DNA of 64,000 nucleotides from Orbilia blumenaviensis. Lineage: Eukaryota > Ascomycota > Orbiliomycetes > Orbiliales > Orbiliaceae. This document shows positions 1 through 64,000 of the stretch, one piece after another. Location of the stretch: NCBI GenBank assembly GCA_036872755.1, contig JAVHNS010000015.1, positions 1,269,971 to 1,333,970 of the forward strand. Reading direction: 5' to 3'. Numbering within the stretch: position 1 is the stretch's first letter; each line of letters begins with the position of its first letter. The notes under the pieces were generated by a model. That model saw only the letters and a program-made list of their open reading frames with translations, did no database searches and was not told where the DNA came from. A program made the position numbers and the translations under genes.

Positions 1-3000
1 ATTCCCAGCAGGACATTCTTAGCGTTGTATCCAGCGCTCCAGCATGTGGTTGCTGCCAGAACAGTGCACTCGTCCAGGGTTTCGAAGCATTCCAGTATCA
101 CACCCCTTTGCTCGTCGTTGAGCTCGCTGTAGAATGGTAGAATGTTGAGCGATTTCAAACCGGCCAGGTGTAATGCCTGTGCTTTGCTCCGACAGAACAC
201 CACTATCTTTCCGCCCTGGCTTCGGATGCTGGCGACCTCGCTGCGGATTATTTCTTCAGTCATATTCAAAAACGCTTCGCTGACCGTCACCGCATAGGAA
301 ACGTTTTTGACATTGGTAGGCACCCTCATTGTGATGTACTTCTTGATACTGGTAAACTCGGTGAAAGCGCCGCTCATAATGGGAGGGAAGCTGGCTGTCA
401 TGAACACCAGTTGCGTGGGGATAGCGGAGAGATAGACCAGCTTGTTCAACTTGCGAAAGCCCTCATCGACGATAGGCTGGTGGCATTCGTCTAGAACGAT
501 TCGGTCGAGCTGCTGGCGTGACCAAAGCTCTCCAATAAAGCAACGAAATGACGTTGTGACAGCTGATTCCGGCGTCGAGACTATGAGATATGGAGGCTTT
601 GGAGGGATGTGTTTCTCACCCGAGTCCCCTCGATAGAAGGTAGCCTTGATGCCCTTCTCGTTTGCCCTTTTGACGACGTCCTCGCATGTGGCGATATAGG
701 GCTCAATTATAACCGTAACTCTTGATCCTGGAATTTTCATAGCGACCAGAATGGCTTCCGTCTTTCCGATAGAGGTCGGTAGGATCGCAAGAAGAGGCCC
801 GTGCTTGAGGAAGAGCGCCCGGGCGAATTCAGCCTGCGCGTCGCATTTGAACTTAGCCTCCGGTCCGTGTAGAGCTATCAGTGCCTGGAGAATCTCTTTC
901 GGGTAGGGGTTTGGCTGCGTATAGACGCTTAAGTGCACAGGGGGTTGTGCGAGCGGAGCCTCGGGAGCAGCTGGAGCTGGTTCGGGGGCAGTCTGGGGCA
1001 GTACTGGTGGGTAGGGAGCGACTGGCGGGAGGAGCTGTGTGGTTCCACCGTAAAGGCTATTCCACTTTCCTCTAAACATCTCGATCACTACACCGACCAA
1101 TGTCAGCCAGCTACATTTGTACATGTGTATATGCTGTAATATAGTACTTACTTTCATGCTGGAGAACCGGCGGTTTAAAGACCCAATCTGGTAAATCTGT
1201 GATAGCACCGATGAAGAAGTGCCAGTACATAGAAGCAATCCTAGAGTTCTCGACGATTTCGCCAGGACCCATGGACTCAGCATCGACGCCATAGCAGTGA
1301 TCCCGTGTGTTCTGGCCATGGCCGGTTTGGAAAGCAAAACTGCTCTCTTCGATAGCGGTCTCCTTCAGACGCTGAACCATGACTCCGAAGCGCTCGAGGT
1401 GCTTCTTCGTCATCGCAACAACCAGCTGCCGATAGGTGCTGATCTTGAGATTGAAGCCAAAACTGGCAGTCGCGGAGTCGGCTAGTGAGTCGGAAAGCTT
1501 CTCCGACCTCCATGACCTCCCGTTCGCATCATGAAACAGGAACGGGGTCATCACAGCACAGCCAATCTTTTTTCTCAAGTAACAGGCGAAGGGTTTCACC
1601 ACCAGGTCGAACATCAAAAAGCTGTCCCCGACGTCGGGCGGGAAGAACCTGTAGATACACTATGTATGCGCACGGATCAGATGCTGCTAGAGCGAGCGGG
1701 GACCCAGGGGGGGATAGGGGCGGGCTCATGAAAGCAAACCTTCGCGGAACCGGTAAAGGCCATCGTCTTGTTATAAGCTATCGCGGATACAACGGTGCGG
1801 CCCTCCCAAATAAAGAAAGTTCGTTGATATTTTGCAGTGTTGCAAACTCGACTTCCAAGGATCTCAGGCCCACGGGGTGGCTGACCGCCGGTAATGTGCA
1901 TTGCGATGGCCAGGACGACCAGATATCTCTCTACTAGATCCAGATAGTCCCGTGCCGTAGAGAACTTGAGCACCCCATCCACCGTGAAGAAGCGGCTTCT
2001 GAGTTCAGGTGCGGCGTAGATTTTCCGTAGCAGATGCGAGTAAAAGGAACTGAAGTTGTTCCTACCGTCTGCGGTGTAGGACCACCCCAAAGCTGTCTCG
2101 GATTGGATATCGTAGATAGTCGGGGGGAGGATGGGCCACGAGGATTTATCGTCGCACAGTAGCAAATTCCCTGTTAGCTCGCCGAGAAGACGTATCTCAT
2201 CTGCGACAAACTTCTTAAAAAGATAGATATCAAAGACGTGGCCTTTGTACGAAAGTTTTGAATATCCGCTGGTGTCATCCCAGTGGATTTTATTCAAGGC
2301 TAGGACGTCGAGGGACAGAACTTTTCCGTAAGCCAGCAGCGAGAGAGCCTCGCCCATGACGCTTCTGCTGTTATCCCTCAGGTACGGCTTTAGGGATTCG
2401 AAGTAGGCGTGGAATGGAGCCTCGCCCTTCTCCGGGTCCTTGGCCAGCACTTTTTCCTGATAGCGCAGGCACGCGCGAAGGCAGAGCAGACGGGAGCAAA
2501 AGATGAAGCCAGCGAGAAACTTTGTATATCTCTCTGGGGGGCGAAATATCCTCGACTCGCGATCATAGCCCACGAGGCAGAGAAAGTTTATCCCCAGGTT
2601 TGAGAACCGCTTCAGGCCGAAAGACTGTACAAGAATACACTTGACGAACAGGGCAATGATACGGTCTGGGAGCTCTTCCCGAAGCACAGGGTCAACGGCA
2701 CAGGTAGCGAGACTCTTGAGCAACTGGTCGGTCTTATCGGGAACATCCACACCGATCAGCTCCAGCTCCTTCTGACTCAACCACTGCAGCCGAACCAGAA
2801 AACAAAGCAGACGGATCAGCACCCTGAAGTACGCCGTGTGGGTTGCGGGTAGCTGTTTGGCACAGAAGAGTCGGGGGGACGTCGATTCGCCGGGAGACCT
2901 CAGTTCTTTGAGAGTGACGACGTCGACATCGGAAATAAGATCCAACGTGCCGTACAGCACGGTTTCCGCGGCCTTAATGATGGGACGGAGGATTTCGAAA

Positions 3001-4293
3001 TCGGGACTTTGGTCGGTGGGGACCTCTGTCAAACGAACATACTTGGCGGCTACCTCTGACCCGCTCCCGCCGTACTGCAGCCATTGGGTCCTTAGGAGCC
3101 AAGGTGGGGTGGCCATTGCTTCATCACTCAGCTCTTCGTCGTCGATGGCGCGCATTCTATCCAGCAGCTCGAGTTCTCGAGCCAGAAGGTCGGTATCACG
3201 GGGGGCACGCGGGGTTTGAGTAGCGAGAACTTCGAAATAGACTTTGCCTACCCCCGTATGGAGCAGCTGGGCCTGGCATTCAACCGTCGTCTTGTCGGAA
3301 CATCCTCTTTGGTAGTGCCAAGTCGAAGTGCCAATCCGGATGGCATTGCACGACCTGCATTTATAGGCCCTGATAGGAGGGTTTATATCCGTAATGGGCG
3401 GTCCGGGAGGGCTATTATTCAGATCTCGCTCTTTTGATTTGATTTCATCGTGCGTCATGAGGCCTAGAGGCTCAACGGTCTTTTCAATCGATTTCATGAC
3501 CCGTGAGTACGAGTCATTTCTCTTGTGGATACCATTCTTCAAATGAGCGACCAGCCGGTCGACGCCGACGCAGACCTTACACTCCCGACAGACAACCGCA
3601 TTGATTGTTTTGTTCACAGCATAATTGAGCTCGCTCAGGCTACCCACAATGTTCTTTTGCACCGCCAAGTCAGCATCAATCCTTAAAATCTGTTCATACA
3701 TGCATTAAACCATCTAGATATACGCACATATCTTGGGCTTTTGCATATCTTAACTATGTACATATATACGAAAAAATTGTATGGATCTAATATGTAATAG
3801 AGAGGATTACTTACTTGCTCGTCGCATTGTATTTGTGGCTGCTGCTCTGACTGAGAGGGCTGCAGCGTGCTCTGGCGGGGAGTGCTTGGAGGGTCATCAG
3901 GCACGACTTGGGGAGGCTCAGGAGCAACAGAAGCGGTACTTCCGGGGTGGAGGACACCCTGTGACAAAACATCCGCTGCCTCACCTGCACCGTTTTCGTT
4001 CAGCTATGAAGAAAGTCAGAGCAAAGTTAAATTATAAGATCAAGGTCAAGACCTACCGGAGCCTGAGTAGGGGGGGCGGGGTGGCTTTTGACATGACCTC
4101 GAAGGTTGTTCGGATTGTCATATAGCATCTGGCAGCCGGGACACTCGAACTTGCCGTCCTTTCGCTGCAGTTTCACCTTTTCTCCATTTCCAAAGGTGAC
4201 TAGAACCGCCTTCTGGTGAACACAGCGCCGGTGCTCTGACAGCTTGGCTTCGTCTGGGAACACCTCCTGGCAGGTGGCACAGCGGGAGGACAT
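1..4293 (-). CDS. TLH-type protein: zinc fingers, OrsD region, recombinase-like region and RecQ-type helicase (partial)
   Basis: Seen: an ATG at 4293 opens a five-exon model (4057-4293, 3815-4003, 1740-3689, about 1148-1659, 1-1071; GT-AG introns) that leaves the window at base 1. Two C2H2 fingers lie at residues 5-26 and 51-71; CxxC..H fingers follow in exon 3 (VVCRECK; YKCRSC). Near residue 745 is TGGQPPRGPEIL; exon 4 has PFLF, STYRQL and QTGHGQNTRDHCYG. After a Pro/Ala-rich linker comes an SF2 helicase core: ILPTSIGKT (Walker A, ~1060), DECH box (~1160), MTAS (motif III), FCRSKAQ (motif IV), with the window ending near motif V. Family knowledge: OrsD/DUF3505 regions joined to RecQ helicases are typical of fungal subtelomeric TLH genes. 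The helicase should unwind DNA in the nucleus; a telomere role is inferred from family and place. The last exon junction has two possible phases. Transcribed away from the telomere. Confidence 0.8.
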
Positions 4294-18781: not shown

Positions 18782-21700
18782 TCAAAGAGGGGAGTAGGCG
18801 TCAAGCATAGGGAGGAGGGCGTTCTCGATGTTAAAATCGGTTCCGAAAGACTGTGTATCTAGCATATCCGTGTCGCCATCGGCCTCGGTTGAGACTGATA
18901 CAAGTCCTGAGCCGCTATTCCTGCTTTCGCACTCGTCAAGCAATCTTGCTGCGGTTGGTTCATGCGGGACGAGAGGAATGTCCGAGAGTAGTCTCATCTG
19001 CCGGATCAGATTCTCGTTTGACCTGAAGAGTGCGAGGGCATAAGCCTTAGACACTGTTTCTTGTTAGATTTGCTCACTTTCACAGTATCTAGTCTGAGAC
19101 CAGACCAGAGTATCTTGGGAACACAAAACAACAAAAAAAAAAAAGAAAGAAAGAGGCGGGAAGGGTTTAGCATACATTTAGAAGCCAGAACAGGGGGATA
19201 CACCACCCATTCGGGCAGCTCGTCCAGCGCTCCAATGAAGACCTGCCAATACACGGAGGCATGGCGCGACTCCGTAATTGACTCTGCAGTTATCCCAATG
19301 ATATCATTAGCGTCAACCCCGTAGGAGAAGTCCCGCATATCGTTGGTATGGCCGGCTTGGTAAGCGTAGATGTTGACACTCTGATTCCGCTGCCTCTCTA
19401 TTACCAGCGACAGTGGCTCAACGTATCTTTTGGCTATCGCTATCGCAATCTGTCGGTACTTGCGCGGCCTGAGTTCGAAATCCATCACGCTAAAGGCCTC
19501 CTCCTCCATGAAGGCGGCCAGGCGTTCCGCCCTCCACCTTTCAGCATTAGGGGTCACGAACAGGAATGGGCTTTTCTTAAGCTCTCGTGATCTTTCCAAT
19601 AAATACCAATAAAACGGAAGGACAGTAGTGAGATAGTAAATGATCTGGTCGGCGAGGAAGGGGGGCGGAAACCGGCATATATTCTAGATCGTTAGAACAG
19701 TCTACAAAGGTACGTAGAATGGGGGGGGGCTTCGAGGCATACCTTGAGTTTTCCCTTAGTCTCCTGGGTCTTGGAGTAGGACGTGGTAATCATTACGGTG
19801 CGATTCTCGATGATATAGATATTCCGCTGGTGATACTCCGTGTTTTTGAAGCGGAGGGTCAGGATCTCTGTGCTTCGTATAGGCTGCCCGCAGGTGAACT
19901 GCATGGCGAGACACAGCAGTGCCAGATAGCGAGAGACATGAGTTGTATATTGTTCGACAGCGCTGTCCAGTAGAACATCCATGTTGCCATACAGTCTCCC
20001 CTTCTTGGCCGGGTCTCTCATCAACGAAATCACCATGAACCTGGACAGCTCCTGGATGGTAGAATGATTTCGCTGATCGCTTCTGAAACTCCAGTCGGCT
20101 GCTGTATTACTAGGGACGTCAAAAAGTCTATCCGGTAGCGGGGGCCAACCCCCTCGGTCGGTGGAGAATAGCAGATAATTAAGCTCTGTCTCTAGACACT
20201 CGAAGACATGTTTTACTAGGGATGTGAATTTGGGAATACTGAAGCATTCTCCATCCAGGTTCAGACTCTGATAACCATCTTCGACATTCCACTGTACTTG
20301 TCCGGGAGCAGCGTGGTTCCTCAAATGGAAAGCCCCCGCGCTATGCAGGCCGAGAATCTCGCCTGCGGTGGTCCGACAGGAGTCCTTCAGGCGTTGGCAT
20401 ATCTCATCAGCACTGGCGTGGAACCTTTGGGTCCTCGCCGGCTCTGCCAAAGCTTCGTCGCCATCCACTGCGTCCCAGCAAGAGCGGAGGGCTACCAACC
20501 GGAAACAAAACATTAGGCCTGCTAGAAGCGGGGTGTACCGCTCAGGACTTTTAAAAGTCTGATTGCTCGGACAATACCCCATCAGAGCCAGGAAGTTTAC
20601 AGTTAAATTGCCGAACTTGCGGTTGATATATACCTTCTCGGACAGTAATTCCCACATCAAACTGCCGATTTCCGCTGCTAGCGTCTCCGAGGAATCCGGT
20701 TCGACCGCGCAGCGCTTGATGTTTTGGATTATTGCAAGAGTAGCGGAGGGCATGACGACGCCAGTGGCGATTTTGTCGGTTTCGTCGTATGTTATGCGAA
20801 CCACGAAGCATACGAGCCGCGCCATCCACGTGAAATATTTGAGGTGCGTCCGCTTTTGATGCCGGCGCGAAAACGGCCGCAAATCAAGATCCTCATTTGG
20901 AGAGCGAATGTTACGAAGTGTGATGTTGTCAGTGTCGTCTATCAGATTGAGGTACTGGTGCAGGAGCGCCTTTGTCTGTGTGAAAACGGCATCCAGTACT
21001 TCAAAATTCCGGTCTTCCGGTGCCGGTTTATAGGTAAGTCTGGAGAGGGTCGCCATGATTCTCATATCGGCATAGTCATGCCACCCGGTTCTTGTGATCC
21101 AGGGGGGCTCTCGAACTTCCTCGGTGACGACGGCATCCAACTGTCGCATTGCGCTTGCTAAGATGTCTAGCTGCTTCTGGAGTGCCCCCTCCGCCTCAGT
21201 CATGTGGTTCTCGACTTCAGGCACCGCTACTTTGAAGTAGGAACTGCCGATTCCCACCGTGAGGGCCTGCACGTGGCACTTGACGAAGGAGGCACCATTA
21301 CAGGCCTTTCCGTGATGTTTGATGGAATCAAGGGTGGCCCGAAGCCGGCCGCATCTGGTGCATTCGAATCCATCCGAAACCGGAAAATATGGGAACGGCG
21401 GAACCGGGCCAATCCTGCGGAGATGGGGTACCCAGCGAGCAAGGTCTCCATGGGGCAGGAAGGGTAGTGGCGTCAGCTGTCTTTCCAGCGCAATGAGCTC
21501 CGATCTGTTAACCTTCCTACCATGCAGTCGAAGCCGGTGGCTATGGATACGGCTAGGATTGATACAGAAGCCGCAGTCCAGACAGACTAAGGCTCTCAGC
21601 TCGGACACTATCTCGAGGTTGATGTATCTTAGGTTGCGCAAAGTCGTCTGACGTAGGCATCAGTTTTGCGTATTAAATTGCATTCGCCGTTATAATTAGC

Positions 21701-27513: not shown

Positions 27514-28969
27514 ATGGATCACCACTGGGTAGATAGCGTCCGAGAAATTCCGGAAGGTTTGCAGGGTGTATTTACAGTTACCACGCTTCAGGAACTAAAA
27601 CGGCGTGCGTGTGCACAGACGGGGCCTGGCGCTCGCAAGGCCAAGGAACGCCGTGATAGGGCAGTCCAAACACTATCCCGGTACCGAAGCTGCCTGCAAA
27701 GCCACAACCACTACCAAGTAAGCTATCGGAACGATGACGGCGATGCAACTGGTGGAACTCTGTTCCCGGTCTTCCATCCAACCAAGACCCAGTTTGCCGA
27801 TTTTGAACGGTTAATGGAGAAGGCACAAGAATTAACGCACGAAATCGGGACTGGCCTCTTCATAATCAAGGTTCCACGGGAAGCGATCATCGGGCAGTCG
27901 GGAACCAAAAACAAGAAGCGCTCAAAGCCTATCCTTCCCTTTTACAAGCAGACCACGAAGAAAGTCGTCAGCCTGGATGCCACCAAAAGCCAAGATTGTG
28001 GAGACAGCAAACGAAAATGTGCACCACTATGGCAAGATTTCCCTACCTTTCCGACTATTGGGTACAAGGTGACGTCTTCCGTCTCAAAAGCACCAACTGA
28101 TCTCTCTAAGTGGGTGACGGGCGGAGGTGAGGATGAAGATTTCCAGCAAGCCGTTTCGAGTTGGAGTGATCCTAAATGGAAAGTCCGATACTATGGTGAC
28201 CTCAATGCAGGGCAAAACCTTAAACGGCAGCTTGAGATGGCCCACCCGCTTATGGAATCGTTGCCCGGCTGCATAATGCAGCAACTTGGTATGGATATCC
28301 CGGGGATCAATTCTCCGTACTACTACCTCTCCGAAAGGCACTCTCTCTTCTCTCTACATGTCGAGGATTTAAACACCATGTCGGTCAACTATCATGCGGG
28401 AGGCGACGCGAAGGTCTGGTTTGTAGTCCACCCGGCGGCGCGGAAGGAACTGGAGAAGTGCATCAAAAAACACGTTGGGTTTCCCGGGGAGGCTGTTATT
28501 ACTAGTGGGGGATCGCGGTCATGTGGACAGTTCGTTCGGCATTTGTCCGTCTTCATCCTACCGGACGTCCTACAGAATTGGGGAATTCGTTTTGTCAAAG
28601 TCTCACAGCAAGCGGAGGAAATGGTAGTAACTATGCCACACGCTTACCACCAAGGTTTGTGTTCCCGGCCCTACCCCCCATTTGCTCCTGGAACCGTTCT
28701 TCGGGAATAACAGCTAACGTTGAGTAGGGTATAACGCCGGCCTTGCCCGGAATGTCGCCGTCAACTACATGCCGGAGAGTCTATCTTACAAGCTACTCAG
28801 ACATGTGGACTGCTCTCAAAGCTGTGGTCTCGGCGTCACAGGGGTCCAGGTGGATCCCTCTGAGATTATATCTGCGAGGGGGTTTGCTGATGACGAAACC
28901 ATAAAGGCTCTACAGCAGCTGCGCATGCTCAGGATGCAGGTAAAAATGGAGGCGTCAGATGAGGAGTGA
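27514..28969 (+). CDS. JmjN-JmjC domain protein, KDM4/JHDM3 type, probably catalytically competent
   Basis: Model: exons 27514-28654 and 28728-28969 (intron 73 bp, branch-like CTAAC), 460 residues. A JmjN-like segment near residue 88 reads FPVFHPTKTQFADF. The JmjC core has YYGDLNAG (the 2-oxoglutarate Tyr), PGINSPYYYL, LHVEDLNTMSVNYHAG, AKVWF, CGQFVRH, TMPHAYHQG and then YNAG across the splice. Compared with KDM4A from memory, the iron ligands His/Glu (H-x-E in LHVED) and distal His (AYHQG) are present, as are the Asn and Lys of the cofactor site. The zinc site (Cys and His of CGQFVRH, plus a Cys pair CSQSC in exon 2) also looks kept. Known role of the family: Fe(II)/2-oxoglutarate-dependent demethylation of histone lysines (H3K9/K36). 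The protein is short, with no PHD, Tudor or C2H2 domain seen. Substrate is unproven. Confidence 0.85.
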
Positions 28970-30141: not shown

Positions 30142-31389
30142 ATGCCAGACGGTCTAACCAACTTGCAGTGGGCAGACCAGCTCAGCAGCACCCCGCCTTT
30201 GGCGAGGTATACCACGGAACAAGTCAAGGAGCTCGCCGCCGGGGTTAGGAGTAGCAAAGTATCCAGCCAGACCCTCAGTTCGGCAAGACAGGGCATCATG
30301 GAGCATCAAGCCATCATCCGACGATACAACATATCCTTCCGCTCAGCGTATGGGGTCCTAACACCCATTTTTGAACCAAACGAAGAGCAGGTGAAGATAG
30401 GCTTTGATATGATGGTATATGACGCGCTACGCTTGTGTGGGGACAAGGTGCCCTGCTTCCTCCTCAAACACCCCCCAAGCACACTCCGTGCCTTCCCAGA
30501 CGACCACCCGGAGAGGGACACTGTATCTATAGTACGTTATGTCAACAAAAGTGCCTGTAGCATCCAACAATACAAGGACTATCTGGACGAAAACCCTGAG
30601 AAAAAGAAGCATCTCGGCGTTAAGCTTTACAACAATTCGCCACCCAGGCGGAAGGAGAATCAAACTTTGCTGCCTGAGCTGGATTCCGAAATGTGGAGGG
30701 AACTAGACACCGTGGGGTACCGTTGCAGCCAGAACGGCAAATCGACAAGGAACAATGCGGACATAAAGGCTTGGAAGATTGCTGCTGCTGCCGCTGTTGA
30801 CGGGGAAGATTCCGACGACATTGATGATCAGCAAGCTATTCATGCACTCGACACGTGTGCACGGAAGGGTTTGGGCAGCCGGACACTCGAAGTATTGGGC
30901 GGGACACGGTTGGCATTCAAGCTCGCTGGGGCTCCAGTACCGGAGCTCGAAAACCTCCCTGGCTGCTCGATCCGGGCACTCAGGCGGCACGGCTACCTCG
31001 AAGCGCTGAAGTACTTCTGTCAGCCGGTACTTAGAGTCCGTGAGCAGGTCCCTCGCCCGCTAGGTTTTGGGGAAGTTGGGTCCCTTACTGTACAGTATCT
31101 CGTCGCCGGCGGAGCTACAATGTGGTATATCGCCAACCCCAAGGATAACAAAACGGTCAAGGAATTCATGTGCCTGCATTTTGGCGACCGCTTCGTTGAA
31201 ACTGCAGAGGGGATATACGAAGATATACATGTGAAGTGCGAGCAGAAAACCCGACACTTGGAGATCTTCGTCAAGCCGGATCTCTTAGAATCGGCGGGGA
31301 TCAAACTGCACCGCGTCGTGCAGCTCCCAGGAGAATGTATGGTGACCTTTCCGTACGCTAATTTTCAAGGTACTCCACCTCAGACCGCT

Positions 31390-31428
<39 letters not shown>

Positions 31429-31724
31429 CGGTTACGCTAATTCGCGTAGAAATCAGCTTGAAGAAATCGATGTCTCTGACGTCGCTGTATCTCCCGTTCG
31501 ATCGCATACATCAGCTCCAGAACTACAAGGGCTGTAACATGGCATGCGGACTCGCTCAAGCGGAAGGAGGTAGCGATGGTATCCCGGACGTGCGTGACAT
31601 TGAATCCGTCGGTTGGGTCGACTTTGCCGGTGCTAAGAAGTTTTCAAAACGCGTCAAGGAGATACTGGAGCATATTCGCCAGACGGATGGCTCGGCTCGG
31701 GACAACGAACGCGAGGATAAATGA
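30142..31724 (+). CDS. Diverged JmjN-JmjC paralog lacking iron-binding residues (pseudoenzyme)
   Basis: Model: exons 30142-31369 and 31450-31724, 500 residues. The intron (80 bp) includes a run of 38 T. The layout follows the gene at 27514: a weak JmjN-like segment (LTPIFEPNEEQ), then ENLPGCSIRAL, PLGFGEVGSLTVQYLVAGG, TMWYI, TRHLEIFVKPDLLESAGI and TFPYANFQG, with the intron at the same place. Where the partner has LHVED and AYHQG, this protein has LGFGE and ANFQG, so all three iron ligands are replaced. The cofactor Asn and Lys are also changed (VQY, GATMW). The structural zinc Cys/His (CEQKTRH) and a late Cys pair (GCNMAC) are kept. A non-catalytic, fold-retaining role is inferred. The frame is intact, so it is not an obvious pseudogene. 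Confidence 0.75.
31370..31449 (+). other. Intron with a 38-T tract
   Basis: GT at 31370 and AG at 31449. T tract 31391-31428, followed by a branch-like CTAAT and the CGTAG acceptor. Splicing here restores the frame and matches the intron of the paralog (28655-28727). Confidence 0.75.
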
Positions 31725-32552
31725 TATTTCTTTCTGATTACTGGCTGCCCCGGTCCTGTCAATAACACAGCATACTACCTGTTAATATGCCTTAACCGCT
31801 GTTGTCGTCAATATCCAAATTTATATATTGAATATCTGATAAAAAGATCCGGACACAACTTATTGGTGGTGTAGACCGCGCAAGCCCCCAGCTATGAAAG
31901 CATTTAACTCCAACCTCTGCGTGCACTAAAGCGCTTATGCGGCACAGTGGGGACAAAGCATTGTATCTCATAAAATCAATTTAGTCGCGAGGCTGCACAC
32001 TGCATACACATATACGAAGTACTGCAAGTGAGATAACCGTGGTATACCTAGTTATGGGGAGGAATTCTGCGTTGTGGCTGTTGTGCCAAGATGAAGTTGG
32101 TCGCCTTGGTTACCGGGCCAAGAAAAACAATCAAAAAGGGGCGCAACACAAAGTCTAATTCCATTATTTACAATCCAAACTCCCGACCACCAACTAACAT
32201 CCATCTCAGAACATCATCCAACCAGACACCCATACAGAACTAACGAACGAGAATACCAGGATTTCGAATGACGATGACATCTTCTAGCTTCGGGTAGATC
32301 ACACTGCAGGACTGGTAGCAGGCTCCCTAATGATATGAGTCTCGCGAGGACCGGGTGTGATGTACGCGATTCTAGATGGTGTAGTAGTCGCGTTACTTAC
32401 TAACCAGAGAGTGAGTGGAGACAGGACTTCTTCCGGATTGCTGCACTGCATCGCAGGACTGGTAGCAGGTTCCCTTCATGCGAATCTCGCGAGGACCGGG
32501 TGCAGAGCAGAAATCGACTATCGGCGATGTTCTTCGGGCCGTTGCCTCACGG
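31725..32552. repeat. Intergenic; one ~70-bp unit duplicated 146 bp apart
   Basis: GCAGGACTGGTAGCAGG and the following CTCGCGAGGACCGGGTG occur near 32307-32357 and again near 32453-32503. CA-rich sequence with a short ATG frame (32269) lies just upstream and looks like a transcript leader. No protein gene is supported. Confidence 0.6.
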
Positions 32553-33318
32553 GAGAGATCCGCTTGTCTAAGACTTGTGATTTCGGCACCGAGAGGAATT
32601 GGCGGCCCGTTTTGCCTTACAGTTGCGATTCCACTGGAAGCTATCTTGTCAGCCTGTCGCTCCTCCGCTTGTCTAAGACTTGTGAGGAGATATGATAGCT
32701 CGTGATTGTGGCTGCCGGTGGCGAGGCGGGTGATGATGGTTTACAATGGGGGAAGAATGAAATGAAGAGCCTATAGTCTCCGCTGGTCTAAGACCTGTGA
32801 GATAGCACGGCTATACACTGTCTGCATACGGAATTCGACTTCGATGTCGTCTTTCTGCTGCCTCCGCTTGTCTAAGACTTGTGAGGTAGATTGGTCTATC
32901 ATGTTCTACTATGAACAATAACCAGGGATACTATTGTCACCTCCGCTTGTCTAAGACTTGTGAGGTCGATGCATGTGATGTTCTGTTATGAAGAATCGTC
33001 TAATTGTCACCTCCGCTTGTCCAAGACTTGTGAGGTCGATGTATGGCGTGTTCTACTCCGAACAACAATCAGGGATACGATTGCCACCTCCGCTTGTCTA
33101 AGACTTGTGAGGTAGATGCATAGCGTGCTCTGTTACAGGCAATAATATAATTGTCGCCTCCGCTTGTCCAAGACTTGTGAGGCAGATTGGCCTATCGTGT
33201 TCTGGTATGAACAATAATCTAATTGTCACTTCCGCTTGTCCAAGACTTGTGAAGCGTTGTTTAGATGTTGCTCCGTTGCATCCGCCAAGGGTCTTCACTT
33301 GTCTAAGACTTGTGAGGT
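32553..33318 (+). ncRNA. Array of ten hairpin-forming repeats, candidate structured noncoding RNA
   Basis: A ~26-bp core (CCTCCGCTTGTCTAAGAC then TTGTGAGG) occurs ten times, starting near 32557, 32662, 32777, 32861, 32940, 33010, 33087, 33157, 33229 and 33293 (spacing 64-115 bp). The core folds: outer arm CCTC/GAGG, inner GTC/GAC, UAA-type loop. Outer-arm bases differ between copies but keep pairing (for example GAGATC with GATTTC, TCTC with GAGA, CTTC with GAAG). Several changes give G-U on the plus strand, which favours plus-strand RNA. The stretches between cores are themselves related but more diverged. Transcription is not shown. Confidence 0.55.
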
Positions 33319-34614
33319 CCCAGTATTTCTTGGGCTTCTCGAAACTGACAATCATTCGCTCTGATAGATCGCCACCGCCATGCCGATGAACGGCCGCGGG
33401 AGAACCGGATTTTGACACTACCCGGCGACACCGGCCGCTCGTAATAGGCGCTACGCTGCGTAATGGCTTTTCGGGCCTCGGTATTGCGAGCAATATGCCA
33501 GACAGACAAGGGGGGCCCATATATATCTTCGCCCACCCGCCCTGGGAAGCTTGGATGATAATGTCGTTCGCTCGGAGTAATATTGGAAAGGGCCCTTTGG
33601 TGTATATGGGAGCCTTATTGGGGATACACCGTTGAACAGATAAAGTTTAGACTTATGTGGTCAAAGGGAAATGTCCAGATTTAAGCTCTTGAACCAGCAA
33701 AACCTGTTGGGGCGGATTATTCCCAGAGACTACGAGGTTGTCACACAAGGAACGTAGCGTCTGCTTGCGGTTCAGCCGGTGGAGGACGATGAAATCGTCA
33801 CCGTTTAGACCCCCCAGGGCATGGCTTTCTATCCAGGCGAGTCTAGATCCCGTGATGGGTAGAGGGAGGGGGTATTGCGATGGCGGTGTGAGGCCACCTC
33901 AATCGAAGCAAATATATATGCCGCAGCCGAAGGCGTCGCCTTATGTTGCGAGAGTAATTGAGGTAAGGCTATTCAACCCTAGTAGAGCCACACGTCGTGA
34001 AATAACCGGCCAATATGCCAGAAGGAGGTGACTATTGGACAGTAAAATCATGATGATCGAGATATCCAGCGATACCATCACATCGCAAGTTTGAATTGGT
34101 ATATCTAATAGTATAAATCGTAGATGTTAATAAAATAGATTATCGTACTATCAGACTATATGTATCATACTACAAGACTAATATATACTCAAGTATCTAT
34201 GAGTTTTCGAGGTTCAGCAGTATATCCGGCCTGTTAGATCCTCAGATGCTCGAATATTTAGTCATCCGGTTATTGTATACTTAAAGCTATTCCGTGCGCC
34301 AGAACCCAAGGCAGCTGTTTGTGAAATAGAGACCGTATACAGTTCATGATAAGAGGAACTATTGTAAGGAGCGCCGGTTTTGCACGTAGGAATGGTATGG
34401 ATGGAGAATGATACCAGCGCCTGGAAATGTGTGTATACGCCGTTGAATGGTGGTCATCCTCCAACCCATCCCACCACCAAACCCATCACCAACCATCTCT
34501 ATCAGCCCACCAAACCCTCCCCATCAGCCCGCCAAAGTCTCACTCTCTCCAAGCTGACTCGTCGAGCCCACCTCCCACAACTCGTATCAACCAATAACCG
34601 CCCATCCTTTCACG
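33319..34614. other. Intergenic
   Basis: No gene is supported. Short open frames in this stretch show no recognisable motif. CCA/CAA-rich sequence at 34455-34610 looks like the leader of the gene at 34615. Confidence 0.45.
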
Positions 34615-40610: not shown

Positions 40611-40979
40611 GAGTTCTTATCGTTGTTAGTTCTCGTCATACTTGGCTAGGCTCTATTAGCACGACTATCCTTTTCTGGCAATCGAATAGACCTCGGGAGC
40701 TCAAACAGTGTAAGTGCTAATTTCCCGCATATCCCGCAGACCAAACCAGGGCACTTCATATGAGGATGTCATATTGCCAACGATAGAAGCGTTCAGGCTG
40801 CTCTTTTCTCTGGCTACCCTTGAAACACTCCGAGTTTCGGTTTTAGAAGAAACTAACGGGATTAGTGCTAGGTCTTCTTGATTCGGAAGTGCCAGTGCAG
40901 AAGCCGGCATGTCGCCATGGGACTAGTTTTTGGCTTCAATGTTGGCCTGAGAGGTTCTTTCCTAATACTCTCTATCATC

Positions 40980-41250
40980 ATCGAGGCGAGTGGCAGGACG
41001 GCCGAGACGTCCTCCCTGGCACGGCTGGTATTACAAGAGCTAGTTTCCACTTTTGTGGAGAACCCAAGTCTCGAGCCGGTGTTACAAAACGCTTTTCTGG
41101 CTCCAGTGGGAGTCACAAAGGGTTGTCGTCGAAACAAGCGGCAGGACGGCCGAGAAGTCTTCAGTACGACCAGTATTAGAAGAGCCAGTTTCCACTTTTG
41201 TGGAGAACCCAAGTCTCGAATTGGTATCACGAGGTCCCTTTCTGGAGATT
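40980..41250. repeat. Tandem duplication, ~145-bp unit
   Basis: The first unit starts near 40992 and the second near 41140 (both GGCAGGACGGCCGAGA). An identical ~30-bp block containing CCACTTTTGTGG recurs near 41044 and 41189. The flanks of the two units are diverged. Confidence 0.8.
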
Positions 41251-42487
41251 CATGGAAATATCCTTCCCCAACCGTTTAGGGCTGAGCAAAACCAATGAGG
41301 GTCTCAATCTCCAAGCCCTCTCGAGATCCTTCAAACTTACGAGCTCCAATAAAGCAGACGCTTGAGACCGATCAAGGCTGGCAAAATTCCGGCTTCTAAA
41401 CGCGTCCTACGGCTCCCACCCTATGAGCCTCCACAAAAACGTCCTTCATCGGGCGCGGTCGATCAGGGACAATGAGGGTCTCAGGCCTCAATCCCGTTCC
41501 AGATGGACGACCTACTAATAAAGACGAAAACGATGGGCTTGGTTGTTTTGCGATATTTGGCCTTACAATGGGTTGGGTTATTGTATCCGGAAAGAAAGTA
41601 TGAGAGGATGATCCTATGGTATTGCAGACTCGAGAGTCTCGGTTGAATCAATCGCACATCATGTTTATAGTAGAGAGCTTTATAACTTAGCTTCTAATCC
41701 CTTGATTTAAATAACTATATCTACTGCCTCGAACTTTGGAATTCTATTCAAGCCGTCTAATTGGTATGAGACTAGCGTATGTCGTCATCTCCGCTACAAA
41801 GGTAATGTCCTTAGGTCGAACTGGCCTCGTAAACCAGCCTCAACAGATGGAGCTGATTATAACAAAACCGGTAAAAGTATCCTCAAATCATCTATGGTTC
41901 AACTATCTGGCTCGATTCGAGGCTACAGTTGCCCTATCATAATTTTTTTTTCCGTGGTACCGTGCCAGTGGGTCTATGAATAGAGAATAGATTTACTATT
42001 CACTGACTTCCCCGGGAAAAGAATAGGATTGAGGCTTTTGAGCGGTTTCTGAGTGGTGCCCAGGATTCTGGTAGGGCATATTCTGCTCCGTTGAGCTTGC
42101 GGCTTTTACGGGACCAATAGCGCACAGTTAACTGCGTAGGACCTCAAGGTCACACTTGGTGCGTCTCGCGCTGGGGTTCGTTAGTGCTAAGCTCTCTTTA
42201 ACCTTTCGCTAGCCCTGGTAATCGGCCGAGATGCAGGTATTTGGGCTGTTCAGATCCTATTTCAAGATACTACGGGACTAAATTTCAAGTAGACCCACTC
42301 AAATAAAGCCAAAACGGCCATGTTTTGTTACTGTCTATGGACTGGTCTCTGATACGTGACGAGCTGCTACGTCGAAAACACACCCAAAAAAAAGAACAAA
42401 AAAAAAAACACTCAATACGTACGAGTAACTACCCTGGGGCTATAGCTGGTCCTGGTCCTCAATTGTCGCAGTATATACTTATACGTT

Positions 42488-56240: not shown

Positions 56241-58056
56241 CGCCTAGCAAAACCGGGAGGAGATTGTTGTGGCGACATCAACACATATACGGAGCCCCAA
56301 ATAAAGGTACGGCAGGGGTAGATATGGACACAGCCAAAGTAGAGAAAGGTAGGCGGGGAACGACATCGAGCTGGAGGCGGTCTGAAAATGTCGGCCGCAC
56401 CAGCGGATAATTCTTCCGACAGAAATAAACCAGCTGCCCGTGGTAAATCTTTTGCGAGAGCCGGAGTGTTTCGTCAAAGGTCATTGGAATGGAAAGGTCC
56501 ACTCAGCGCTCAAAAGCCAGCAGCTAGGCCCAGGCCAACCCCTCCAATGTATTACGAGAAGGTTACCAGATTTATTGCCATATATTTTGACAGATGAACG
56601 TCGCGTATGCAGCGTTGATATGGTTTGAACACGCAGCATTTGACGGCCGCAGCGGACGTTAGCAATAAAACATATGTATGAGTTCGTGGAATGACTTAAG
56701 AGAAGGGTATACATGTGATAGAAAGAATGAATGGTACAGGGCATCGTAAAGAAGACACGTATAAGCGTTTTCGGAGGGAGTGCAAAATATATGGTACCTC
56801 AAACAGAGCGCATTCGGAAGACAGTAAATAGATTGACAGTGTATTAGGAGTGTTCGTGTGCATGCAAGGAGTCTGTAACCAAGCGTTGAGGCGTCCAGGT
56901 TGTAAATCCGTCTGACAGAAAAAGTATATTCACGGATGCTTAAACAATAGAAGCGAAAGAATGTGCAGATAAACTTTAACCAGGAGAGAGACAGCCGTGG
57001 ATGATTGACATGACAAAACACTTATAGTTGGTATAGGCAAGCACGACTGGGAAAAAGAGAGACTATGCGAGCGGGTGGGGATTTGCGCATAGTGATTAAT
57101 CGCGTGTGACGAAGATCGAGAGGTAAATGAACACAGGCAAAAGATACAGGAGATATTGATAAGATAAAATCATGCACAGTAACATCATGGAAGAGATGTG
57201 GAGAGAAATTAGAATGGCCGGGCGTGCGAAAAGCGTTGAAGACAAGCGTTGTAGCAAACACGCCCCTGTAGAAGAATACAACGAAAGAAGAACAACGGCG
57301 TGAACAGACAATAGGGGTAGCGCAGATGATATTTAATGACAGTATATAAGAGATTTAGAAATTGTAGGTGAGAAACGTCGCTTGATTTAATGAGGGCAAG
57401 TCGATGGAAACGGCCTTGAAGTGAGCAGTCTGGTGCGTTGTTTGCTCGGTAAAAATAAACCGGCAGAAAACAACGCCTATCCGACATTTAAAAATTTAAA
57501 GTTGTGAAGAAGGCAGATAAAATGATGAAAGGGATATATTGGAGACAGTGAATAAAATGTAATTGATAGTGCGTATTTTATCATTAGTATATATCGGTAT
57601 CTGTTTCATTGGGAGCAGAGGTACTGGTGTTGGAATATTAACGGGGTTTGATGGTTTGTGGCGATTGTTGGAACGTCGAAGCGATGAAATAAAAGCATGA
57701 CTGAGAGCGGAAGTACGAAAGGAAAAGCATGTGCGTGTAGAATAGCGTAAATAAGTATGTATGTATGCATTTAAATCGACGTGCACATATAAAAGAAATT
57801 CTGGTAGAAGTGTTATATGTGTATGCATATAAAAGAATGCGTGTAGAAAGATATTAATAAGTAGGTGTATATGGATTTGTTGGGGGTTGATGGAATGAGT
57901 ACGAGAAACGTATTGAGATAAAAGCGGAGTAAAAAATGTATTAGAAAAAGGCGTGTGTACTTAAGTAATTGGGATGGAGATAGGTGTATATGTATGAAAA
58001 GTGATATATGCAAACGAATATGAACAGACTTGTGCTAAAATAGAGAAATATGTAAT
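56241..58056. other. Purine-skewed proximal zone
   Basis: The plus strand is clearly richer in A+G than C+T. This creates long but meaningless minus-strand open frames full of Ser, Leu, Phe and His. No gene is supported. Confidence 0.6.
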
Positions 58057-58189
58057 GTACGGGGGATAGATAATTTTTTTGGGACTGCTTCCGAGTCTTA
58101 AAACCATTTTTTTTCAAGTCATTATTTACACCGTCTCAAGCTCCCTTTTATTTATAAAACATCTTGAGAAACCAGCCAAAACCCCGTAC
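58057..58189. mobile_element. Composition island with short inverted ends
   Basis: About 130 bp of balanced or pyrimidine-rich sequence inside the purine-skewed zone. It starts at GTACGGGG (58057) and ends at CCCCGTAC (58182-58189), an 8-bp inverted repeat. It may be a small inserted element; no coding capacity. Confidence 0.35.
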
Positions 58190-61100
58190 GGTATGTAAAC
58201 GAGGAGATACGAGCGAATGACGACGAAAGCTGTAAGTGTAGTATGGAATGATAAATTAAGGTATCAAAGCGTAATATATAGAAGGAAAAAAATTAACGGT
58301 ATTATATAAAAGATTAGGTATAAATATAGGTGCATGGATAAGGAAGCACGTTAAAATGTGTGAAGATGTTGAGTTAGAATGTAATAAAGCAAGTGGAAAA
58401 GGTCGTTGAAAAATTAGTATGGGTGGGTAGTGCGGGGAGAAAATATGAAAAGAGTAAAAAAAGGGAAAAGAAGAAAAGGGAAAAGCAGATTAGGAAATAA
58501 GAACAGCGCTAAAAAGGATGTGTGGTTAGAATAAATTGGGGTAAAATGAAAAGATTGATTATTGAATAAGTGAATGAATTATTATATTGGTAAATAGATA
58601 AATAGATAAATTGATTGATTGATGGATTAATGTTTTAAGAAGTGAATGGATAAATAGATAAGTGAGTAAATAAATAGAGAAATGGATAACGAGATAAATG
58701 AATATGGGAATATGTGAATAGATATGTGAAAAAATAGATTGATAAATAAATAAATAAAAGAATAGATAAGTGAGTAGGGTGATAAATAAGTGAGTGAGTA
58801 GGTGAGTAAATTGGAAAGGGAAAAAGAAAATGGAGAAACAGCGAAAATATAAGATTGGTAAATAGAAATGGGAAGAGGTCGCAGAAATAATGTTTAAAGA
58901 ATGGAATGGAAACGGATAAATAAATGAATGATTAAATAATTACGTGAATAAATGTATGAATAAGAGAGTTAATTGATGTATGAATAAAAAAGAAAATGGA
59001 ATAGAGTTAGAATTGGTGGGCGAGTGGTGGCGCGGTGTAATAGTAAGTGAAGGGAAAGAGGGGTAGAAAATGGAAAAAATGAAAGAAATGAAAAGGAAAA
59101 CGAATAGATATATAAATGAGTAAATAGAAAAATAAATGTATGAAAAGATTTAAAAAGTAGAATCAGAATAAATGAATGGAGGTGGTTTAATATGCGAATA
59201 AATAAATGGATAGTTAAATGAATATATAAATGAACGGGGAAATAAATGGGAATTGAAATGAATGGGAATGGAGATGAATGGAAGTAAGGAGAAATAATTA
59301 GTTGAGTATATAAAAAAATGGATGTATGGTTAGATGAATAGTTTAAAAATAGGTAAATAAAGAGGAGGGATGAAGATAAAGAAAGAGAAAAAGAAAAAAG
59401 AAAATAATAAGAAAATAATAAAATAGATGTATGAATAAATAAATAAGATAAAGAGGGGTAGGTGAAAAGGAGGAAAGAAAGATAATAAAAGAAAATAATT
59501 AAGTAGATAAATAGATATATGAATGAATAGAAGTAAATAGAAGTGGTTAAGGGATTAAGTAGATAAATGAATGAATAGAAATAAGTAAGAGAATGAATAA
59601 GTGAGTTAATAGGGTTAAAGGAATATGTGGAAAAATGGAATAGAGATTGTTGAATAGAATTGAATAAAAATGATTAAATATATAAATGGATGAGTAGAGA
59701 AATGAATAAAGTGAATAAGTAAGGAGTGTAAGTGAAAGAAATGGTAATTGTGAATAAATGAAAAAGTGAATGAATGAGAATGAATAAATGAATGGAAAAG
59801 TGAATGAATAAGCATGGGTTGGGATGAATAAGAAGAAATAAATAATAAAAATGAATAATTGAATAAATAAAGAGTTGGAAGATAATAAAAGAGAAAGAGA
59901 AGAGAATAAGCGTGGGTTGGAGCGGGGGTAAGTGTAAGGAAAAAGAGGGAAAAAGTAAAAGATGGATAGATGAGTAAATAGAGTAGATTGATAATAGAAG
60001 TGAAGAGAAAATAATAGAAGTGAGTAGAAGTGAATAGAAGTGAATAGAAGTGAATAGAAGTGAATAGAAATGGGTAGAAAGAATAGATGAATGGATAGGG
60101 TGAAAGGGAATGTGTGTGAATGAAAAGGAAAAAGGGAAGAGTGAATGAATAATTGCGTGAATAGAAGTAGTTAGAAATAAATAGAGAATAGTAGAATGTA
60201 TGAATAAATGGGTGGGTAGGGAAGTGGATAGATGAATAAATATAGTAGATGGATAAATGAGTGAATAGAAATGAAGAGGAATGGATTAAAATAAATGAAT
60301 AGAATTGGAAAAAGTAGATGGAAAAAGTGGAAAAAGTGGGTGGAGGAAGTGGAATAGAAGTAATTGAAAAGAAATGGATAGATGAGTGAATAATTGAGTG
60401 GATAAGTGAATGGAAGTGGATAGATGGATGTGTGAATAAGTGAATGAATAATTGAATGAATGGGGTTAGAAAGAGTGAGTGAAGAAAGTAGAATAGATGT
60501 GTAAATAGATGGGTGGATGAATGGATGAATGAATAAATGAAAAGAGTAGATAGAATGGGTAGAATAGAAGTAGTTAAAGGGAAAGGGGTAGATGAGTGAA
60601 TAAATGAGTGAATAGAAATGAATAGAAATGAATAGAAATGGTTAGAAATGATTGGGAAGTAGTTAGATGGTTAAATAAATGGGTTTAAAAAAGTGGGTGA
60701 ATAGATGAATGAATAGATAGAGTGAAAGGAGGGAATGGAGATGGTAGAATGAATAAAAGTAGATGGAAGGAAATGGATGAATAGGTGAATGAATAAAAGT
60801 GAATAGAAATGAATAGTAATTAATGAATGAATGAATGGATGGATGTATAGCGAAGTGGGTAAATGAATGGGTAGAATAGATGGATAAATAAGTGGATGGA
60901 AATGGATAAATGGATAGAAGTGAATAGAGAAATGAATGGAAAGTAGTTGGATGTGTGGAGAAATAAATAGAAATGAATAAAAATGAATAGAAATAAATGA
61001 ATGGATGGATATATAAGTATATAAATAAATAAATAGATAAATGGTTAGGTAAGTAAATAAATATGTGAATAGATTAAAAAGAGTAAATAAAAGTAGTGTA

Positions 61101-63300
61101 ATAGAAGTAGGTGAAAGGAAATGGATAAATGGATAAATGGGTGAATGAATAGAAATGATTAGAAATGAATGGGGAATAATTGAATGGGAGAATAAAGAAG
61201 TGAAAAGGGAAGTGAGTGAATGAATGATTGAATGAGTGGGGTGAAGTGGAATTGGTGTAGATGAAGGGGGGGTGAAGTGAATGGATAAGGTGAAAAGAGT
61301 GGATGAATAGAAATGATTGGAAGTGGTTAGAAATAGGGAGGGATTGTGAATAGAGTGGAAAAGTAGAATTGAATAGGTGTAAATGAAGGGGAAAAGTGAA
61401 ATGTGAATGAATGGAATGGAATAGATAAATAAATGAATAGAAGAATGGATAGATGTGAATAGAAGTGAAAGAGTGGGTAGAGGTAATTGAAGAGAAGTGG
61501 ATGGATAAGTAGATAGATAGATGAATAGATGGATAGGTGAATGAATGAATAAATGAATGGATAGATAGAAATAAATGGAGAATAGAGAAATGAATAGAGA
61601 AGTGAATGGAAATGGATAAATGAATAGAAATGAATAGAAATGAAGGGGAGTGGTGAATAGGATGAAATAATAGGGTGGAATGGGTGTAAATGGGGGGGAA
61701 AGTGAGTGAATGGTTAGAGATGAATAGGGTGGGTGGAGGTGGAATAGATGGATGAATAGGTGGATGGATAGATGAATGGGGTTAGAAAAGTGGGGGGGGA
61801 ATAGAAAAGTGGATAGAAGTGGGTAAATGAATGGAAATGAATAGGTAAATGAGTGAATAGATGGATGAATGAATGAATGAATGATGAATGGATAAATGAA
61901 TGAATAGGTAAAGAGAGTAGATAGAAATGGTGGAGTAGAAATGGTTGGAAGTGGTTAGAAATGTTTGGAAATGGTTGGGTTGGCGAATAAATGAATGGAA
62001 ATGGGTAGAAATGAAGGGGAGTGGTGAATAGGTTGAAATGGGTGTAAATGGGGGGAAAAGTGAAATGTGAGTGAATGGTTAGAATTGAATAGGGGGGGTA
62101 GAAATGGAATAGATGGATGGGTGAATGAATGAATGGTTGGATAGGTGGATGGATGAATGAATGGGGTTAGAAAAAGTGGGGGAATAGAAAAGTGGGTAGA
62201 AGTAGGTAAATGAATGGAAATGGTTGGGTTGGTTAATAAATGAATGGAAATGAATAGGTAAGTGGGTGAATAAATGAATGAATGAATGAGGAGGTGAAAA
62301 GAGTGGAGTAGAAATGGTTGGAAATGATTGGGTTGGTGAATAAATGAATGGAGGTGAATAGAAATGAATAGAAATGGTTGGAAATGGGTAGAAATAGAGG
62401 GGGGGGTGATAAATAGGGTGTAAATGAATAGATAGATAGATAGATGGATGAGTGAATGAATGAATGAATGAATGATGGAATAGAAATGGTGGAATAGAAA
62501 TGGTAGAATAGAAATGGTTGGAAGTGGGTAGAAATGGAAGAGTGGTGAAGAGAGTGGATAGAAATGGTGGAGTAGAAATGGTTGGAAATGATTGGGTGGG
62601 TTGGTTAATAAATAAATGGAAAGGTGAAAAGAGTAGAATAGAAGTGGTTGAAAGTGGTTGGAGAATAGTTGGGTTGGTGAATAGATAAGTGGGTAAATGA
62701 ATGAATGGATGGGTGGATGGATGGATGGATGAATAGAATTGGATGGGGGTGTTGAATAGGGTGTAATTGGTGTAATGGGGGAGAAAGTGAAATGTGAGTG
62801 AATGGTTAGAATTGAATAGAGTGGGTGGAGGTGGAATAAATGGATAAATGGATGGATGGATAGATGAATGGATGGTTGAATGAATGAATGAATGAATAGA
62901 TGAATAGGTGGATGAATGAATGAGTAGGATTAGTTGGAAATGGGTAGAAATGGAAGAGTGGTGATGAATAGAATGTAAATGAAGGGAAAAGTGAAATGTG
63001 TGGGTAGATGGGTGGGGTGAGGGAATGAATGGAGAGGTGAAAAGAGTAGAATAGAAATGGTGGAGTAGGGGTGGTTGGAAATGATTGGAAATGGTTGTAG
63101 AATAATTGGGTTGGTGAATAAATGAATGGGGGTGAATAGAAATGAATAGGTAAGTGAGTAAATGAATGGATGGATAAATAGAATTGAATGGGTGAATAGA
63201 ATTGGATGGGGTGTTGAATAGGGTGTAATTGGTGTAAATGAGGGGAAAAAGTGAAAGTGGATGGTTGTAGGGTTGAAAAGTGGAATAGTGGTAAATGGTT
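58190..63300. repeat. Subtelomeric degenerate T-R-R-R tetranucleotide array, nearly C-free
   Basis: Over long stretches the plus strand reads as T followed by three purines (TGAA, TAAA, TGGA, TAGA, TGGG) repeated with slips. C is rare. G content rises towards the telomere. No gene. Confidence 0.9.
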
Positions 63301-63842
63301 AATGAAGAAGAGGAATTGTAAATGGTGTAGGGTTGAAAAGGGTGGGGGGAATGGGGGTAAGTGAGGGGAGAAGAGGGAGAAGTGGAAATGGAAAAGTGGT
63401 GAAGGGGGGGAGTGGAAAAGTGGGGGAGGGTTGGTGTTGTGGTTGGTGTTGTGGTTGGTGTTGTGGTTTGTGGTTTGTGGTTGGTGTTGTGGTTAGAGGT
63501 AGGGTTAGAATGGGTGGGTGGGAGGGTTTGATAGGGTTAGAGTTAGGGAGGGTGGGAGGGAGGGGGTGGTTAGAGGTAGTGGTTGTGGTTGTGTTAGAGT
63601 TAGGGAAGGGTGGGTGGGTGGGGAGGGATAGGGTTAGTAATAGGGGTAGGGTTAGAAGGGTGGGTGGGAGGGTGGTTAGTAGTAGTGTTAGGGTTGGAAT
63701 AGGGTTGGTAATAGGGGTAGGGTTAGAATAGGGGTAGGGTTAGAGTTAGAGTTGGATGGGTGGGTGGGAGGGTGGTTAGAGGTAGGTTAGGGTGGGGTGG
63801 GAGAGGGGGGAAGTAGGGTAGTGTGTGGGGTGTGTAGAAGAG
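63301..63842. repeat. G/T-rich transition zone with degenerate telomere-like units
   Basis: GGTTGGTGTTGT-like units lie at 63428-63500, followed by mixtures of TTAGAG, GTAGGG and GGGTGGGTGG. A 132-codon frame (63333-63731) of Gly/Val/Arg is low complexity and not a gene. Confidence 0.85.
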
Positions 63843-63923
63843 TTAGGGTTAGGGTTAGGGTTTAGGGTTTGGGTTAGGGTTAGGGTTAGGGTTTAGGGTT
63901 TAGGGTTAGGGTTAGGGTTAGGG

Positions 63924-63964
<41 letters not shown>

Positions 63965-63997
63965 GGTTAGGTTAGGGTTAGGTTAGGGTTAGGGTTA
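63843..63997 (+). repeat. Telomere, (TTAGGG)n with TTTAGGG and TTAGG variants
   Basis: About 25 units reading TTAGGG towards the right edge, mixed with TTTAGGG and TTAGG variants. This orientation places the right edge at the chromosome's 3' G-strand end. The last bases (TCT) depart from the repeat and may be an end artefact. Confidence 0.97.
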
Positions 63998-64000
63998 TCT

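Follow-up and report, generated by a model that had tools for sequence, protein, structure and literature searches.

The window analysed here is a stretch of 64,000 nt at the right end of contig C15 (1,333,970 bases) of the Orbilia blumenaviensis genome (42.5 Mb in 23 contigs), and it terminates in TTAGGG-type repeats. Two adjacent, diverged JmjC-domain genes lie on the plus strand (27514-28710 and 30142-31721) immediately before a region of predicted hairpins; the product of the second, hypothetical protein TWF730_003786, maps with 100% identity to exons 30142-31368 and 31449-31721. The features of the hairpin region are given below; positions within hairpin A are numbered so that position 7 is the C preceding TTGTC, and each copy spans positions 0 to 27.

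32141-32250, plus strand: C/A-rich tract with few G, immediately 5' of the structured region, a candidate 5' leader or promoter-proximal sequence
32270-32389, plus strand: hairpin B1, 120 nt, 38 predicted pairs, mainly small internal loops
32436-32515, plus strand: hairpin B2, inner sequence as in B1, outer arms different in sequence and predicted to pair
32556-32583, plus strand: hairpin A copy 1, arms GAGATC/GATTTC
32661-32688, plus strand: hairpin A copy 2, the copy whose flanks are nearest to the array on contig C1
32776-32803, plus strand: hairpin A copy 3, C-G to T-A at 1/26 and T/T to G-C at 9/19
32860-32887, plus strand: hairpin A copy 4, arms CTGCCTC/GAGGTAG
32939-32966, plus strand: hairpin A copy 5, outer pair A-T
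33009-33036, plus strand: hairpin A copy 6, outer pair A-T
33086-33113, plus strand: hairpin A copy 7, outer pair A-T
33156-33183, plus strand: hairpin A copy 8, outer pair G-C
33228-33255, plus strand: hairpin A copy 9, C-G to T-A at 2/25 and the sole A.C cell at 0/27
33291-33318, plus strand: hairpin A copy 10, minimum-energy fold in a shifted register without the bulge

An earlier note, made from the window sequence, had described ten copies of a hairpin core on the plus strand at 32553-33318. This was confirmed: the array consists of ten copies of the 28-position hairpin A between 32,556 and 33,318, and the core, allowing up to 3 mismatches, was matched 10 times in the window compared with a mean of 0.08 in shuffled windows. 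The reported spacing of 64-115 bp stands in substance, with the lower bound corrected (measured range 63-115 bp). The variant arms described for copies 1 and 4 are present in the sequence, and so are TCTC/GAGA in copy 3, CTTC/GAAG in copy 9, the outer A-T pairs of copies 5-7, the outer G-C pair of copy 8 and the G-C pair that replaces an inner mismatch in copy 3. Copy 10 has lost its bulge, as had been noted, and its minimum-energy fold shows a one-base register shift; its T-G at 4/23, previously read as a G-T pair, is unsafe as evidence of wobble pairing, since RNAalifold indicates that the bulged base may be position 4, not 5.

The genome was searched with an 18-base pattern allowing up to 3 mismatches, using the reversed pattern as control. 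The search revealed one further array, with 14 copies at C1:24030-24784 on the minus strand, 24 kb from a contig start bearing CCCTAA repeats. Both arrays are read toward their own telomere (2/2; chance expectation one half). The pattern occurred at 71 places, 24 of which are the two arrays; the remaining 47 are no more than the control yields (59 places). Three other places with up to 2 mismatches were inspected: outer arms were formed in none, and the inner three pairs do form in one near match (L018). DNA searches with either array returned these two loci only. A dispersed, MITE-like mobile hairpin was ruled out by the presence of only two arrays, within the limit of 3 mismatches applied genome-wide. 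More diverged copies were sought by a covariance search of 144 kb, comprising the window and nearby stretches of both subtelomeres; it recovered the 24 copies, the source of the model itself, and otherwise nothing below E 0.6. Prokaryote genomes and viral contigs contained 0 exact matches to the core, which fits a fungal element.

Most alignments between the two loci extend only a few bases beyond the core, the spacers being far diverged. Judged from these alignments, the C1 copies are therefore a largely, not wholly, separate sample. Window copy 2 (W2) is 80-92% similar to C1 units along 49-64 bases, and a tree built from all 24 copies places it with copy C14. There are also three weak alignments between the loci, 109-115 columns long, that span a spacer at 71-74%.

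In the fold common to the copies, positions 0-3 pair with 24-27 to form an outer stem, which is followed by one bulged base (4 or 5). The upper part consists of G6-T22 and C7-G21, the tandem mismatches T8.T20 and T9.T19, the pairs G10-C18, T11-A17 and C12-G16, and a loop at 13-15. Among the 24 copies, pair 3/24 is invariant; 2/25 is CG in 21, AT in 1, TA in 1 and TG in 1; 1/26 is CG in 21, GT in 1, TA in 1 and TG in 1; and 0/27 is TA in 14, AT in 4, GT in 3, and GC, TG and AC in 1 each. Pair 6/22 is GT in 21 copies, AT in 2 and GC in 1, and never A.C. The stem has a defined boundary: 0/27 is paired in 23 of the 24 copies, the next pair outward, -1/28, in only 11. Copy C14 is without one inner pair. 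The minimum-energy folds of W10 (shifted register, no bulge) and C12 (bulge at position 4) differ from the common fold, and the cells of these two copies therefore depend on the register chosen.

The four outer-arm pairs (3/24, 2/25, 1/26 and 0/27) are of a standard type in 95 of 96 cells, and they include 10 extra pair types, 7 of which have both sides changed. For a tree-based null, a tree of the 24 copies was built, parsimony changes were counted per column and the same number was dropped randomly on the branches. In 20,000 runs this null gave 74.4% paired cells (sd 9.8) and 1.1 double-changed pair types (sd 0.96); the observed values, 98.96% and 7, were reached in 0 of 20,000 runs, a result which is strong but not exact, as the four pairs were selected with the data already in view and the tree is a loose one. 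In a column shuffle over 23 distinct rows and 11 pairs, in which the letters of the 3' side were shuffled 500 times and five measures were recorded, 94.5% of the observed cells were paired versus 87.2% after shuffling; sliding the register gave 28-50%. The score for covariation was 0.226 versus 0.094 in the shuffles; the observed values were reached in 0/500 shuffles on four measures and in 3/500 on the fifth. Covariation above a phylogenetic null, which the earlier note had made one test of its claim, is thus borne out over 24 copies from two arrays.

The number of parsimony changes per position is 0-4 within positions 0 to 27, with the exception of loop position 13 (7 changes), and 3-12 at the sampled flanking positions. 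Among the unpaired positions, 5, 8 and 20 show no change and 15 shows one. The conserved block and the hairpin share the same ends. Copies W1, W2, C4 and C12 suggested that the hairpins might extend further outward; this was rejected by shuffling of the flanks, which gave a mean z of -0.26 over the 24 copies. A plain minisatellite was rejected because of the difference between core rates and flank rates. These findings support the conclusion that selection acts on a folded single strand.

The possibility of a coded repeat protein was also rejected. Units are spaced 43-88 bases apart in the C1 array, and many spacings in both arrays are not multiples of three (70, 77, 79 and 115 in the window; 43, 44, 79 and 88 in C1), which breaks the frame; therefore, no repeated protein is coded. 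The array was also considered as a 3' UTR of the neighbouring JmjC gene and this was set aside: coding stops at 31,721, and the matches of the JmjC protein in the genome are on C15 only, so that the C1 array has no such neighbour. At the window locus itself, a long 3' UTR of the JmjC gene could still be involved. Comparison with Rfam 15 gave no gathering-score match in the window and none at E <= 10 for 32100-33400; at the C1 locus the only match was to sR20, at chance level and on the other strand (E 3.6; 15.3 bits versus a cut-off of 44). No tRNA was found by tRNA search.

Folding was compared between strands. The window array gave z -4.19 on the plus strand versus -1.04 on the minus strand (20 shuffles each), and the interval 32160-33330 gave -3.5 versus 0.09 (30 shuffles). 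For the C1 array the values were -1.83 sense versus -1.47 antisense, and a scan in 100-nt windows reached a lowest z of -4.8 sense and -4.9 antisense. The mean energy of positions -1 to 28 was -10.3 kcal/mol on the plus strand and -7.7 kcal/mol on the minus strand; the inner three-pair stem was present in the minimum-energy fold of 22/24 units on the plus strand and likewise of 22/24 on the minus strand. In the 100-nt scan, low-z windows were also found outside the arrays (on the minus strand in the window, on both strands in C1) and no window at hairpin B1 fell below -2.8; z values alone are therefore insufficient for the claim.

Non-Watson-Crick cells give a second indication of strand. The arms contain 7 G-U versus 2 A-C cells (p 0.09 if independent), or 9 to 2 when position 4/23 is counted (p 0.03), in a count which omits pairs 6/22 and -1/28 and in which some cells are perhaps inherited together. 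Pair -1/28 has 4 C.A cells and G-U is absent from it. The proposal that one-sided G-U pairs mark the plus strand therefore has the right direction within the stem and is weak as a statistic. As for the wider claim of a structured RNA from the plus strand, covariation, the fold bias of the window array and the B hairpins alike agree with it; the C1 array shows little contrast between strands.

Hairpins B1 and B2, which were absent from the earlier note, are two copies of a larger element upstream of the window array. B1 folds with -49.4 kcal/mol (z -3.75, reached in 0/200 shuffles; z -1.31 on the minus strand). B2 alone is weak (28 predicted pairs, z -1.52, 16/200 shuffles), and the two folded jointly gave z -1.42 (22/300). 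When the arms were shuffled and the middle was kept, equal folding was obtained in 1/2000 cases for B1 and 64/2000 for B2. Conserved blocks of 23 and 21 nt are common to both copies. The only two positions at which the blocks differ, C/T and G/A, are partners in one base pair, C32323-G32339 in B1 and T32470-A32484 in B2. The outer arms are ATCACAC/GTGTGAT in B1 and CTGCA/TGCAG in B2, each pairing. No third copy of the first block was found in the genome with up to 3 mismatches; the second block occurs at 28 places in the genome, 26 of them with 2-3 mismatches, versus 13 for the control.

Both arrays have a G-poor tract directly upstream on their own strand. At the window array, 90-nt windows starting at 32141-32161 contain as few as 4 G. 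With the tract defined as at most 6 G in 90 nt within 150 nt upstream, it precedes 5 of the 7 plus-strand starts tested in the window (34613, one of the seven, is an unannotated candidate), 0/5 minus-strand starts in the window and 0/5 ORF ends in C1, the last two sets each including two positions for one ORF; in total, 12 of the 17 tested gene or ORF positions are without it. The background frequency, sampled every 20 bases, is 1.8% (50/2815) on the plus strand of the window and 2.5% (63/2485) on the minus strand of C1. G-poor, C-rich tracts of about 90 nt were seen at window positions 23444, 25256, 27396, 30032 and 34451, just before plus-strand starts. The tracts fit two genes, each composed of a leader and a hairpin body; the pattern was spotted post hoc and the marker is far from universal.

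We propose that the arrays represent a pair of related non-coding RNA genes, with repeated hairpins serving as docking sites for an RNA-binding protein, a reading to which we give about an even chance. The interval 32.14-33.32 kb would be a plus-strand gene with an unstructured, G-poor leader followed by B1, B2 and ten copies of hairpin A, and the locus on C1 a putative homologous gene with 14 copies. The lower stem of hairpin A would be required merely as a stem, and would therefore be free to drift in compensated steps. The upper part would be kept by sequence: the bulged base, the G-U and C-G pairs, the tandem U-U mismatches, the GUC/GAC stem and a YAA triloop. An interchangeable stem with a fixed top, repeated 10 and 14 times, may represent a repeated protein-binding site mounted on a structural stem. 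Such an RNA would most likely act by multivalency, as a scaffold or decoy on which numerous molecules of a single RNA-binding protein collect. What we infer from the sequence features described above is that the arrays are transcribed, that the acting molecule is RNA and not single-stranded DNA, that a protein partner exists and that the RNA serves as scaffold or decoy.

The most serious alternative to RNA is that the plus strand folds as single-stranded DNA of the attC type, the hairpins being sites for a recombinase or a replication protein, perhaps of a subtelomeric element, and the inner bulges serving as recognition marks. We consider this unlikely. G.T wobbles form in DNA too, and tandem T.T mismatches favour RNA. 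OrsD-like and DEAD-helicase genes occur in both subtelomeres, and sites folded from one strand and recognised through extrahelical bases are known in integrons, as described in PMC3053210. Against this, only two arrays were found in the genome, with spacers mostly below 90 bases and without genes; both are preceded by a G-poor tract like that before some genes; and a Pfam scan of 14 proteins did not find a recombinase domain. The resemblance to attC lies in imperfect hairpins that carry extrahelical bases; those of attC are recognised on one strand (PMC3053210). The Orbilia arrays differ in that no cassettes or integrase were seen and the host is a eukaryote. Selection for the folding of one strand close to a chromosome end would be unexpected even if the acting molecule were single-stranded DNA.

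The hairpins could instead be a precursor of small RNAs cut by Dicer or another RNase III, which is quite unlikely. B1, the chief candidate, speaks for it with its 38 predicted pairs and small internal loops. Hairpin A, the conserved repeat unit, forms some ten pairs, less than the length of a typical Dicer product, and is interrupted in its upper part; B2, at 28 predicted pairs, does not reach the length of B1.

It is very unlikely that the arrays are neutral minisatellites whose palindromic arms are repeatedly restored by template-switch mutation, giving compensation without selection. Template switching can create and mend hairpin stems, as described in PMC8794818, and may partly supply the compensatory changes (PMC8794818), but it leaves unexplained both the near-fixed unpaired bases (5, 8, 20 and 15) beside flanks with 3-12 changes and the fact that the stems end at 0/27 rather than growing.

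Double-stranded DNA sites for a dimeric or tandem-site protein are highly improbable: the inner 17 bp is largely invariant and the core has CTTGT twice, 11 bp apart, a direct repeat at one-turn spacing, but W3, C11, C12, C13 and C14 alter one or both of these words, the outer and inner dyads are one base out of register, and the outer arms change bases yet stay paired, which a duplex does not need, as the earlier note had also argued.

For the RNA genes proposed here, the nearest working analogues would be the roX tandem stem-loops, the Xist A-repeat and the fungal meiRNA. Multivalent tandem stem-loop RNAs are best known from animals. The Xist A-repeat has a core of about 26 nt and variable spacers, and meiRNA of Schizosaccharomyces pombe has repeated DSR motifs, which are short single-stranded words, not covarying hairpins. 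As described in PMC4881525, several stem-loops of the Drosophila roX1 and roX2 RNAs bind proteins jointly and redundantly within one non-coding RNA, and the Xist A-repeat comprises eight repeats of one conserved element whose stem-loops recruit proteins. meiRNA is described as a fungal lncRNA acting as decoy of the RNA-binding protein Mmi1 (PMC8113380). The fungal candidate, known from sequence, resembles roX1 and roX2 in having several tandem stem-loops in one putative non-coding RNA and differs in its 10-14 near-identical hairpins and in having no Rfam match at the locus. With the Xist A-repeat it shares a repeated conserved stem-loop element; Xist is from an animal, and the loop, bulge and compensated stem of the fungal hairpin are its own. 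The likeness to meiRNA would be that of a fungal decoy lncRNA, with DSR words in one case and covarying hairpins in the other. TERRA and other subtelomeric transcripts are comparable in that both arrays are read toward the telomere, whereas the distance to the contig end is about 31 kb for the window array and 24 kb for the C1 array, and neither contains telomeric repeat.

A more specific reading, which we hold only tentatively and consider rather doubtful, is that these loci represent an undescribed fungal RNA family, with two subtelomeric genes on different contigs, each with 10-14 protein-docking hairpins, acting like roX or Xist at chromosome ends by recruiting a chromatin factor or an RNA-decay factor to the vicinity of the telomere. 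Among the open-licence PMC papers retrieved by literature search, none reports such an array by title. If the proposal of RNA genes is true, structured RNA genes that belong to no Rfam family can reside in the subtelomeres of filamentous fungi, and the arrays would offer a tractable, compact fungal system for studying how an RNA scaffold is tuned by the number and spacing of its repeats.

Several further features were observed in the two subtelomeres. OrsD-like proteins are encoded in both, at window 3-3701, window 19009-21659 and L012:1-3976 (E 1e-7 to 2e-5); two of the three fall just below the Pfam cut-off, a DEAD/Helicase_C frame adjoins the OrsD-like protein at two of the three places, and to the eye their C-termini look like tyrosine recombinase. 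Before and within the telomere repeats (window 58001-64000) the strand is strongly G-rich, with a GC skew of 0.75-0.998 per 2 kb, and the start of C1 has G-free stretches on the plus strand. In window 40847-41295, short overlapping ORFs match one another at about 62-64%, which points to a direct repeat within the region. A 54-bp tandem array of 9.7 copies that are 94% alike lies at L010:8792-9316 (C1:18792-19316), some 5 kb away from the hairpin array of C1; 54 is a multiple of three, and the tandem array is open in several frames.
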